Origin: Candidatus Zhuqueibacterota bacterium
GTDB lineage: Bacteria > Zhuqueibacterota > Zhuqueibacteria > Thermofontimicrobiales > Thiofontviventaceae
Direction: 5' to 3'
NCBI GenBank assembly: GCA_016931935.1
Contig: JAFGDW010000100.1
Coordinates: 1-64,000, forward strand
Length of the DNA stretch: 64,000 bases
A program made the position numbers and the translations under genes. Shown piece after piece: positions 2,362-6,516 of the stretch (position 1 is its first letter; each line of letters opens with the position of its first letter). The notes beneath the pieces are model-generated. The model ran no database searches, was not told the origin of the DNA, and was given only the letters and a program-made list of their open reading frames with translations.

Positions 2362-3078
2362 ATGCGTGATACATTTGAAATCATAATCTTAACTGCACGC
2401 CCTGCAGCAGGCAAGTCTGAAATCATCAACTTTCTAAAGAATTCAGATTTGGAGACACGTCGGAAACGGTTTCATATTGGGCAATTTGAAGAAATCGACG
2501 ATTTTCCATTTGTTTGGGATGCATTTGTCGTTGATGATATTTTATCTAGGCACGGCAGACCTCGTTTGCTTACCGATGAGAATTATTATTTTAAAGATCA
2601 TTTTGTTTGGAATCTATTTATCGAAAAAATTAACATCACGTATCTTAAATTGTCGTCTCAAATACAAGATTATTCCACCCAATATACGACCATAATTGAA
2701 TTTGCCCGAGGTGGCGAGAATGGTATTGGAGAAGCTCTGAGTTACCTCGACGACAATATTCTTAAAAAAGCAGGTATTTTTTATATTGATGTACCCTACG
2801 AAGAATCCGTGCGAAAGAATCGGGCACGTGCGAGAGTAGGGCAGGAAGATTCGATTCTTTATCATTCGCTCCCGGACGAGAAAATGGAATATTATTATAA
2901 AATAAATGATTGGGAAAAACTGACATCGAATGATTTAAAATTTATCACGGTCAAAGGAATAAAAGTCCCTTATGTGACTTTTTCAAATATACCGGATATT
3001 ACAACGGCAGGAGGTGAACCACTAGGCAAGGCTATGGAACAATCGCTTGGTAAATTATGGGAAATCAAAAATCGGTAG
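2362..3078 (+). CDS. P-loop NTPase/kinase-like protein of unknown function
   Basis: 238 aa, cytosolic, no signal peptide. A Walker A motif A-R-P-A-A-G-K-S sits at residues 12-19, right after the first strand, as in small-molecule and nucleotide kinases. A basic arginine-rich stretch at about 152-162 (KNRARAR) could be the lid. The C-terminal half carries no motif I recognise. The start has a strong AGGAGG site 7-8 nt upstream. It lies between the OPA transporter and the thioredoxin-like gene, whose start is 18 bp after its stop, so the two are probably one transcript. Substrate unknown. Confidence 0.75.
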   Translation: MRDTFEIIILTARPAAGKSEIINFLKNSDLETRRKRFHIGQFEEIDDFPFVWDAFVVDDILSRHGRPRLLTDENYYFKDHFVWNLFIEKINITYLKLSSQIQDYSTQYTTIIEFARGGENGIGEALSYLDDNILKKAGIFYIDVPYEESVRKNRARARVGQEDSILYHSLPDEKMEYYYKINDWEKLTSNDLKFITVKGIKVPYVTFSNIPDITTAGGEPLGKAMEQSLGKLWEIKNR

Positions 3079-3096
3079 TTAAACGTAGGAGATATC

Positions 3097-4155
3097 ATGA
3101 AACGGTGGTGGTATTTAATTTTCATTTTGTTGTTTAGTGTATGCAGTAAACCACAACAGAAAACTGGTGTTAAATTTGTTGAAGGTTCATTTGAAAATGC
3201 GCAGCAAATATCAAAACAGCAACATAAACTTTTATTAGTCGATTTCTTTTCCGAGACCTGAGGTCCGTGTCAACGATTGGACCAGTTGGTCTTTAAAAGT
3301 GATACTGCAGCACAAACGATTCAAAAATATTTCGTTGCAATTAAAATTGATAAAAAACATACTGAAAGTAATACTTTAAAATCACGCTATAACGTACGTG
3401 GCTATCCTACAATCATCGTCGCAAATGACAACGGGGATGAAATCGATCGGGTGCTAGGATTTGATGGTGATGGAGTAAAATTTTTACAAACCATTGTCGA
3501 TTATGCCAACGGGAAAAATACCCTTGCAGCACTTAATCAGCAGCTAACCAGCTCTCCTGATGATATTGACCTGAATTACCGAATTGCTCAAAAGTACGAT
3601 GATCGCTACGAATTCGAAAAGGCGGGGAAATATTTCGAAGCTGTTTTGAAGCTTGATCCCAAAGATGCAAAAGGATATAATAATGAGTCAAAATATATCC
3701 TGGCCATTTACGCGATTATCACCGATAAAAATTTTCAACCGCTTGAATCATTCCTCCAAAAAACGGATAATCATGAATACCTGCTTGACGGCTATTCCAC
3801 GCTGGCGAATCAATATGCGAAAATTAAACAATTTGATAACGCTGTGGCAGCATATGAAAAGGCGATGCAAAAACTCCCCGATAATGCCAGGCTCATGAAT
3901 GGTTATGCATGGTTTGTTTTCGAAAAGGAGCTAAAAAATAATTATCAACACGCGATTGCTGTGGCCAGAAAGGCCGTTAAGTTGGAAACGAAAGCAGCAT
4001 ACATAAGGGATACACTCGCCCAATTGTTACACGCAAATATCCAACAGGATGAAGCTATTGCTGAAATGCGTAAGGCCGCGGAAACCGCACCTAACGATAA
4101 ATATTATCAAGAAATGCTTGATAAATATTTGAAATCCGGAAAAGCTTCCAAATAA
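3097..4155 (+). CDS. Thioredoxin-fold/TPR protein with in-frame TGA (putative selenocysteine) at the active site
   Basis: Read through the TGA at 3259-3261 (codon 55), this is a 352-residue protein. ATG at 3097 has an AGGAG site 5 nt upstream. Residues 1-16 form a hydrophobic export signal ending F-S-V-C, possibly lipoprotein-type. Residues 45-58 read L-L-V-D-F-F-S-E-T-[TGA]-G-P-C, which aligns exactly with the thioredoxin active site DFWAEWCGPC, TGA falling on the first, nucleophilic cysteine. The resolving cysteine (58), the later cis-proline region GYPT and the thioredoxin core are intact. TPR-like repeats fill about 150-345. The frame stays open for 297 codons after the TGA. TGA is a normal stop in other genes here. 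A SECIS-like hairpin follows the TGA. Seen: TGA in place of Cys with conserved flanks. Inferred: selenocysteine, giving a UGPC redox motif. The alternative is a recent nonsense mutation or sequencing error; translation could then restart only weakly (TTG 3277). Confidence 0.8.
3267..3305 (+). promoter_or_regulatory. Putative bacterial SECIS hairpin
   Basis: Starting 5 nt after the TGA, the RNA can fold with a lower stem GUGUC/GAUAC (3267-3271 with 3301-3305), a U-rich interrupted middle (U3277, U3278 opposite A3295, A3296) and an upper stem GACC/GGUC (3280-3283 with 3288-3291, plus a G-U pair). The tetraloop is AGUU. The apical loop lies 22 nt after the TGA. Bacterial SECIS elements need a short upper stem, a G-U in the loop and an unpaired U below it; the E. 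coli fdhF loop is GGUC. The fold was made by eye. A competing 5-bp stem GGUCC/GGACC (3262-3266 with 3279-3283) also exists. Confidence 0.45.
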
Positions 4156-4173: not shown

Positions 4174-6516
4174 ATGAAAATAAAATGTATCAGCTTGATT
4201 AGTGCCTGCTTTATCATAATTAGCATCAGTCCATTACATGCAGCAATTCGACCGATTGCTGACGTTCGACAAAACGATGTAAATGGTGTGCCTGTTCTTT
4301 TGGGCCAACAGATGACCATCTCGGGAGAAGTCACTGTCTCAGCACAACATGGTAATCCATCATGCATTCAGGACAGTACCGCTGGCGTGATGGTTTATGA
4401 TTTCAATTTCATGAATGCAGTCTCATTAGGCGATTCAGTTGTTATTTCGGGCACGGTAGATCAATATAATGGACTAACAGAACTGGCAAACGTGACAATC
4501 ATCGAACAATATCAGAAATCGCCTTCAATTGTACCATTAACTATTTCATGCAATAGTATGAAAACTGACGGAAAAAATGGAATTGAAAATTACGAGGGTA
4601 AGCTTGTACGTATCGATGATGTTTCAGTCAATACCGGTTCATGGAGTGTGTCAGGTTCCGGGGCTAATTATGTATTAACCGATGCATCTGGCACGTGTGA
4701 AATTCGCATCGACAAGGATTGTAATATTGCGAATACAAACGCGCCAACAGGATTATTTAGTGTGATTGGTGTTGTCTCTCAATATGATTATTCCAGCCCG
4801 TACAATAGTGGATATCAGTTAATGCCCCGTTTTACGAGTGATATAATTACATCAAGCGGCCCAATGATTCTTGAAGGTCCGCTAGAGACCGAAATCCATC
4901 CTGAATCGATTAGAATTGAGTGGACAACAGATGTTCCTGCGATTGGAATTTTACGATATGGTACAAGCGCCTCCTATGAAATTGATTCTCTGGTAATCGA
5001 AACGGAAACTGTTCAGCACGCAGTTACAATCAGCGATTTAATTCCTGCCACTATTTACCATATTGTAGTAGGCGGAAGCAATTCAGAAGGAATAAATTTA
5101 TCAGGCGATTATATTGTAAGTACGGCATCACCCGATATTTCCACAGGCGTGATGAATGTATATTTTACCCGTAGTGTTGATCAAAGTGTTGCCCTTGATG
5201 AGCATAATCGGGCAAATGGAAATGTTGATGTTGAACAGAAATTTATCGAACGAATAAAGGCTGCAAGCTCATCAATTGATTTATGTTTTTATTCATGGAA
5301 TCTGGAAAAAGCTACAAACGCATTAATTGAAGCATTCCAACATGAAGTGCGTATTCGCTTCATATATGATTCAGAACATGATCAGTATCAATTAAATCGC
5401 TTAAAAGATGCTGGAATCCCTGTGATTGATAATTCGTTTGGTATTAATACCGGTAATGACATTAATCATAACAAATTTGCGATTTTTGATGCTCATCATG
5501 ATTCTGATCCGGCAAATGATTGGGTGTGGACAGGATCGCTTAATATGACGGATGCATCTGGGCTTGGCGTGAATGCAATGCAGAACGTAATTGAGATTCA
5601 GGACCAGGCGCTTGCACGCGCGTATACAATTGAATTTGAAGAAATGTGGGGATCAAATACACAAACTCCGAACGCCAGCTTTGCCCGGTTTAGCACTAAT
5701 AAAACGAACAATACGCCGCATCGGTTTATCATGAACGGATCTCTCGTCGAATCATATTTTAGTCCGAGTGATAAACAAACCGGAGAAATCATTCGCATGA
5801 TTCAAACAGCGGATTATGGTATAAAATTTTGTATTTTTGCATTTACGCGAATTGACATCGAACAGGCGATGCAGGATAAATACAGAAAAATACCAGGTTT
5901 TTTTGTCCAGGGAGTTTTCGATAAAGATTATGATCCGAGCAGTCAGTACCCGGCTATGCACGGCACAGGGACCTATGCATGGGATCCACCTGCGGATGTT
6001 TTTCTTGATACGGAAGCTGGAATTCTTCATCATAAGTACATGTTGATTGATGCAAATCAAAGCAACTCAGATCCAATCGTTATTACCGGATCGGCAAATT
6101 GGTCATCAAGTGCTGAAAACGTTAATGATGAAAATACGCTTATGATTCATAACGAACGTGTTGCGAATCAATATTTGCAGGAATTCAGTGCCCGTTATGT
6201 TGCAGCGGGCGGCGTGATAAATAATGTTGAAAATCAATCGAATGTTGAGCCGACACTTTTCCGTGTAGATGTAAATTATCCGAATCCTTTTAACGCGAGC
6301 ACATTGTTTCCATTCGAGCTTGCAAAATCCGGACTGGTCACAATTCAACTATTCAATATAAACGGCCAACTCGCAACCACTATAATTTCGGAAGTTTTGC
6401 CTGCCGGGCAACACACCATTCGGTTTCATGCTGGCAATCTGCCAAGTGGTATCTATTTTTGTAAGTTTAACTTTTCACAAAGCTTGATTATTAGAAAAAT
6501 TGTGCTTTTACGATAG
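4174..6516 (+). CDS. Secreted phospholipase D-family nuclease with OB-fold, FN3-like and T9SS-type tail
   Basis: 780 aa. Signal peptide at 1-23. Residues about 25-220 look like OB-fold domains of the extracellular nuclease type, 230-315 like a fibronectin III domain. Two HKD catalytic motifs follow: H432-N-K-F-A-I-F-D and H619-H-K-Y-M-L-I-D, each with a downstream G-S-x-N motif (TGSLNMT, TGSANWS). One polypeptide thus carries both half-sites of a phospholipase D-fold active site, as in extracellular endonucleases and phospholipases. The last ~80 residues hold the NYPNPFN box and a beta-rich tail ending I-I-R-K-I-V-L-L-R, a type A type IX sorting domain. It is expected to cleave phosphodiesters outside the cell; DNA is the most likely substrate. 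It starts 18 bp after the thioredoxin-like gene. Confidence 0.85.
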   Translation: MKIKCISLISACFIIISISPLHAAIRPIADVRQNDVNGVPVLLGQQMTISGEVTVSAQHGNPSCIQDSTAGVMVYDFNFMNAVSLGDSVVISGTVDQYNGLTELANVTIIEQYQKSPSIVPLTISCNSMKTDGKNGIENYEGKLVRIDDVSVNTGSWSVSGSGANYVLTDASGTCEIRIDKDCNIANTNAPTGLFSVIGVVSQYDYSSPYNSGYQLMPRFTSDIITSSGPMILEGPLETEIHPESIRIEWTTDVPAIGILRYGTSASYEIDSLVIETETVQHAVTISDLIPATIYHIVVGGSNSEGINLSGDYIVSTASPDISTGVMNVYFTRSVDQSVALDEHNRANGNVDVEQKFIERIKAASSSIDLCFYSWNLEKATNALIEAFQHEVRIRFIYDSEHDQYQLNRLKDAGIPVIDNSFGINTGNDINHNKFAIFDAHHDSDPANDWVWTGSLNMTDASGLGVNAMQNVIEIQDQALARAYTIEFEEMWGSNTQTPNASFARFSTNKTNNTPHRFIMNGSLVESYFSPSDKQTGEIIRMIQTADYGIKFCIFAFTRIDIEQAMQDKYRKIPGFFVQGVFDKDYDPSSQYPAMHGTGTYAWDPPADVFLDTEAGILHHKYMLIDANQSNSDPIVITGSANWSSSAENVNDENTLMIHNERVANQYLQEFSARYVAAGGVINNVENQSNVEPTLFRVDVNYPNPFNASTLFPFELAKSGLVTIQLFNINGQLATTIISEVLPAGQHTIRFHAGNLPSGIYFCKFNFSQSLIIRKIVLLR

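Follow-up and report, generated by a model that had tools for sequence, protein, structure and literature searches.

A UGA-interrupted gene predicted to encode an exported selenocysteine thioredoxin with a TPR domain, and its relatives in KSB1 and Neomarinimicrobiota

Layout of the locus

The window, i.e. the whole stretch of 64,000 nt analyzed here (contig JAFGDW010000100.1 of assembly GCA_016931935.1, forward strand, positions 1 to 64,000), contains a 352-residue reading frame whose sole interruption is a TGA at codon 55 (Table 1). From the ATG at 3097, located 5 nt downstream of an AGGAG sequence, the frame runs through 54 codons, the TGA at 3259–3261 and 297 further sense codons to a TAA at 4153–4155, and the TGA coincides with the first Cys of the thioredoxin CxxC site. 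Given the composition of the window (41% GC), an open run of 297 codons would arise by chance with P ~8e-9, and all other TGAs in the window that have at least 50 open codons upstream are followed by no more than 97 open codons. TGA ends 10 of the 40 long ORFs of the window and is an ordinary stop here, implying that there is no change of the genetic code. Pfam searches with the read-through product returned thioredoxin (7e-13) and TPR (2e-11) matches, while the standard ORF list holds only a 292-aa piece starting at TTG 3277. These results agree with the original prediction, which had described a single in-frame TGA followed by a 297-codon continuation, TGA as a normal stop elsewhere, a thioredoxin fold fused to TPRs and a gene that standard callers would truncate.

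The upstream gene, at 2362–3078, encodes a protein of 238 aa that begins with a P-loop-like sequence (ARPAAGKS) and matches nothing in Pfam. The downstream gene, at 4174–6516, encodes a secreted protein in which DUF5689 and a pair of PLD-like domains occur together with a Por secretion tail; it is a candidate phospholipase D-like protein exported by type IX secretion.

Table 1. Features of the locus, with positions counted from the first nucleotide of the window
Feature	Position	Strand	Evidence
Ribosome-binding site AGGAG, 5 nt upstream of ATG	3087..3091	+	sequence
Whole gene, predicted 352-residue exported Sec-thioredoxin/TPR protein with TGA55 read as Sec	3097..4155	+	sequence; full-length collinear orthologues
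Predicted signal sequence MKRWWYLIFILLFSVC, weak lipobox ending at Cys16	3097..3144	+	sequence
Thioredoxin-fold domain, residues 25-137, U55-G-P-C58, cis-Pro104 (3406-3408)	3169..3507	+	Pfam, alignment, model
Predicted Sec-encoding TGA, codon 55, nucleophilic position of UGPC	3259..3261	+	89 homologues
Candidate bacterial SECIS hairpin GGACC-AGUU-GGUCU	3279..3292	+	PMC13188914 criteria
TPR superhelix, residues 143-350	3523..4146	+	Pfam, AlphaFold model, Foldseek
Truncated ORF, TTG start, 292 aa, expected from a standard gene caller	3277..4155	+	ORF list

Codon usage at the site and selection across it

The search for homologues covered the species genome collection together with two phyla, Neomarinimicrobiota (245 genomes) and KSB1 (82 genomes), in the latter of which relatives of the same order and class place the organism of the window. 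In scanning the site, every TGA was rendered as Cys, which made the scan equally tolerant of a TGA at any position. The 89 homologues covering the site, which come from KSB1, Neomarinimicrobiota and one Caldithrix MAG, carry TGA in 73 cases, TGT in 10 and TGC in 6, with no other codon represented, and none of them shows a further TGA within the part that was matched. The in-frame TGA thus aligns with a conserved redox Cys, and the expectation that relatives would have either Cys or TGA at codon 55 held for all 89. Matches with E ≤1e-30 occur in 76 of the 245 Neomarinimicrobiota genomes, and most of them bear TGA. No full-length homologue was found in a search of plasmids.

The orthologues are collinear with the window protein along its full length, and the positions C/U55, C58, P104 and T105 are invariant in their alignment. 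Active-site motifs include UGPC, UGGC, UGSC, USWC and UTWC, and for the Cys forms CSPC, CVWC and CIPC. A divergent paralogue (L068 1420–3207), found in a genome that has two TGA-containing homologues (G055), reads UGSQ, keeping the TGA with no resolving Cys at +3. In another homologue (L062, G060 C259) the TGA is at the site and the TPR part lies in a different frame, owing to a frameshift or an assembly error.

Downstream of the TGA, dN/dS is ~0.04–0.2 in close pairs, many of which have dS near or above 1. Purifying selection acts on either side of the TGA, and the TGA itself is kept; the random disruptions that would mark a decaying gene, named in the original prediction as a reason to abandon it, are not seen in the relatives. 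A maximum-likelihood tree of 85 sequences requires nine changes between Sec and Cys, in either direction, at least eight of them on well-supported branches.

Selenocysteine machinery

All four components expected of a bacterial selenoprotein producer (selA, selB, selD and tRNA-Sec), whose presence the original prediction had proposed to check, are encoded in the genome of the window, a 7.9 Mb draft of 381 contigs. The tRNA-Sec (64.3 bits; locus L001 1500–1595) has the anticodon TCA (UCA) according to ARAGORN, and selA (554 bits) adjoins selB (360 bits) on contig C27. There are two copies of selD. In one (L048, C62:797–1717, minus strand), the catalytic position (AAGUAAK) is occupied by an in-frame TGA, implying that SelD is itself a selenoprotein; the other (L047, C135) encodes a 749-aa NifS-like/SelD fusion with Cys.

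Within the KSB1 phylum, selA is present in 9 of the 10 genomes carrying the Sec form, and the tenth (G011) is 56% complete and has tRNA-Sec. Three genomes with the Cys form (G014, G019 and G043) also carry selA, indicating that presence of the machinery alone does not dictate the form. Several draft Neomarinimicrobiota genomes have only a partial selB. tRNA-Sec occurs in 49 of the 82 KSB1-phylum genomes, in contrast to a published survey of KSB1 in which selC was reported absent (PMC9012183).

A SECIS-like hairpin downstream of the UGA

Bacterial SECIS elements are defined by a stem of 4–16 bp, a loop of 3–9 nt with a G in the first two positions, a distance of 16–37 nt after the UGA and an MFE ≤ −7.5 (PMC13188914). 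The hairpin of the window gene falls within these limits: its apical loop is 22 nt after the UGA with a G at the second loop position, and the 52-nt segment folds with −13 kcal/mol. Taken alone it is weak (fold z −1.27; synonymous-codon control p ~0.12), and a SECIS claim from this single gene was dropped for that reason. Across the family, 99% of the 72 Sec genes, compared with 56% of the 16 Cys homologues, have a SECIS-like loop on a stem of 4 bp or longer; the stem reaches 5 bp or more in 89% of the Sec genes, and the mean longest stem in Sec genes is 5.5, compared with 4.1 in synonymous shuffles, although these statistics are not independent because the genes are related. Compensatory changes in one hairpin register gave a covariation score that was reached by 4 of 500 shuffles, which is suggestive; in the register that the window gene adopts, where there is too little variation for the test, covariation was not significant. 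One Cys homologue (L058 1501–2550, from G019; CTVC) retains a 10-bp SECIS-like hairpin after its Cys codon, possibly a relic of a recent Sec-to-Cys conversion.

Predicted structure, export and functional context

AlphaFold2 (ten sequences) predicted, with a mean pLDDT of 91 and a pTM of 0.81, a thioredoxin fold with cis-Pro104 followed by a TPR superhelix. Residue 55 is placed immediately before the active-site helix, which follows the first long strand. Foldseek matched the model to TPR arrays, E. coli YbbN (3qou), its Salmonella counterpart (3qdn) and Bacteroides 2kuc. A profile search had the DsbD C-terminal domain among its thioredoxin-domain matches, and this domain and 2kuc are the nearest characterized thioredoxin sequences.

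The original prediction had also placed the protein outside the cytoplasm, exported or lipid-anchored. A signal sequence is indeed seen, and such sequences are general among the orthologues, which, as far as sequence can tell, argues against a cytoplasmic location. Lipid anchoring is plausible. The lipobox is canonical in many orthologues (LFAC, LSAC, LAAC, FMGC), but that of the window protein itself, F-S-V-C16, is non-canonical, and the KSB1 orthologues L069 and L072 have no Cys at that position. The genome encodes one DsbD that itself includes a thioredoxin domain. No conserved gene neighbor or operon partner was found across 19 loci, so that any assignment of the electron donor and of the clients is a guess.

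Weighing the alternatives

A pseudogene, or a sequencing or assembly error affecting TGC or TGT, would call for a difference of one nucleotide in a draft assembled into 381 contigs. However, because the TGA recurs in dozens of independent assemblies, sequencing error is excluded, and the presence of TGA-bearing homologues on contigs as long as 3.1 and 3.4 Mb (L144 and L145) means that low assembly quality does not explain it; with other stops absent and the downstream dN/dS as low as it is, the chance of this explanation is negligible. Equally little credence goes to a split gene, in which a short secreted peptide would end at the UGA and a separate TPR protein would start at TTG 3277. Although such an ORF mechanically exists, the division would cut the thioredoxin fold at its active site, and the Cys homologues (L073, L058, L094 and others) are single continuous proteins of equal length. 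Insertion of Trp or Cys at the UGA, through suppression or a modified code, is slightly less far-fetched, as Cys occupies the site in homologues and there are known cases elsewhere of cysteine being inserted at UGA, but it is still very improbable in a genome that has tRNA-Sec, SelA, SelB and SelD, ends ORFs at TGA in the normal way and carries a TGA at the catalytic position of its own SelD. Code change, split gene, pseudogene and sequencing error were all rejected on the basis of homologue codons, dN/dS and the use of TGA as a stop. We therefore favor the reading of UGA codon 55 as Sec, to which, judging from sequence, we assign a probability of about 97%; the joint claim that the product is a selenoprotein and an exported thioredoxin-fold oxidoreductase is held with confidence only slightly lower.

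The function of the predicted Sec protein is less constrained. One possibility is that it acts as an envelope chaperedoxin, combining holdase and reductase activities, rather than mainly as a docked thiol-disulfide reductase. The order of domains, thioredoxin then TPR, is shared with CnoX/YbbN, the two YbbN structures are among the Foldseek matches, and Caulobacter CnoX unites reductase and holdase in one protein (PMC6282202). On the other hand, CnoX is described as working on cytoplasmic proteins together with GroEL and DnaK, whereas the window protein has a signal peptide; whole-protein superposition on YbbN is poor (TM 0.26–0.32, rmsd 21), and the thioredoxin domain is DsbD-like. We consider the chaperedoxin alternative rather unlikely.

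Proposed mechanism and significance

From the reading frame, the pairing of TGA with Cys, the Sec machinery, the selection across the TGA and the predicted fold, all obtained computationally, we infer how the protein may be made and used. SelB and tRNA-Sec would decode UGA 55 as selenocysteine, aided by the stem-loop closely downstream, and the signal peptide would export the product, probably to the periplasm, or to a membrane face if it is a lipoprotein. The Sec of UGPC would serve as the nucleophile and Cys58 as the resolving residue, such that the thioredoxin domain could reduce or exchange disulfides (or selenenylsulfides) of envelope proteins, with electrons probably supplied via a DsbD-type membrane reductase, and the TPR superhelix could hold clients or a partner complex in the manner of the thioredoxin-TPR chaperedoxins. 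Because it rests on fold and location, the view of a Sec-using envelope oxidoreductase with TPR docking and possible chaperedoxin activity is offered as a hypothesis. A DsbD-fed, TPR-docking role has about an even chance of being right. More tentative, with the odds somewhat against it, is the broadest version, i.e. a family of exported Sec chaperedoxins, widespread in Neomarinimicrobiota and KSB1 and switching repeatedly between Sec and Cys, in which a DsbD-like UxxC thioredoxin domain and a TPR superhelix would bind and reduce envelope clients.

Among the 119 families and subfamilies of prokaryotic selenoproteins compiled in a 2026 review there is no thioredoxin-TPR fusion; nor did full-text searches of non-subscription papers find a description of a Sec thioredoxin-TPR fusion, in general or under the names Marinimicrobia, Neomarinimicrobiota, SAR406 or KSB1. 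Ocean surveys based on short reads (PMC2398784) could earlier have counted members within their 'Trx-like' families. As standard callers truncate or lose the gene, an envelope redox protein has probably been overlooked in about one-third of the searched Neomarinimicrobiota genomes, in KSB1 and in one Caldithrix MAG. A Sec-based thioredoxin-TPR fusion would be absent from the current catalogue and would connect the supply of selenium with redox homeostasis of the envelope in major uncultured lineages. The Sec/Cys switches, at least eight within one family, provide material for asking why Sec is kept or lost.

Comparison with known systems

Thioredoxin-fold selenoproteins with extra sequence or domains are already represented by Trx7/PDZ (NF041199) and the Omp28-type GOS_C (NF045500). 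The former differs in having CxxU, and the window protein scores 20 bits against its cut-off of 300. NF045500 has no match in the genome of the window and none above the cut-off in the 10 genomes searched, the matches in other genomes being mostly C-terminal and below the cut-off. Identity with the marine hypothetical selenoprotein GOS_C was rejected, as its cited NCBIfam model is the Omp28-type one, with no match.

The verified Sec-containing thioredoxin (PF00085, UxxC; PMC13188914 Table 1) shares the thioredoxin fold with UxxC, but its entry gives a thioredoxin domain only, whereas the window protein adds a signal peptide and TPRs, and scores 42.6 bits, below the cut-off of 96.8, with the stand-alone TrxA model TIGR01068. 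The window protein shares a DsbD-C-terminal-like thioredoxin domain with the thiol:disulfide interchange selenoprotein (PF13098, UxxC) and with TsoB (NF045694). Unlike TsoB, a rhodanese/DsbD fusion, the window protein has neither rhodanese nor DsbD membrane part, and a TPR superhelix instead; the TsoB model gives 53.8 bits, from the thioredoxin part only, against a cut-off of 805. The closest solved thioredoxin domain is 2kuc, a putative disulfide isomerase of Bacteroides thetaiotaomicron (phmmer E 1.5e-18, Foldseek TMt 0.81, 34% identity), which is a lone 130-residue domain without TPRs.

The nearest overall architecture is that of CnoX/YbbN (E. coli 3qou, Salmonella 3qdn), which likewise places a thioredoxin domain at the N terminus and a TPR domain after it. 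PF14561 (TPR_20), which we take to be the CnoX-type C-terminal TPR domain, is not among the Pfam matches of the window protein, whose TPRs match as canonical arrays and whose thioredoxin domain is DsbD-like. While CnoX acts on cytoplasmic proteins with SxxC (E. coli) or WCGPC (Caulobacter) at the active site, the window protein is predicted to be exported and to carry UxxC.
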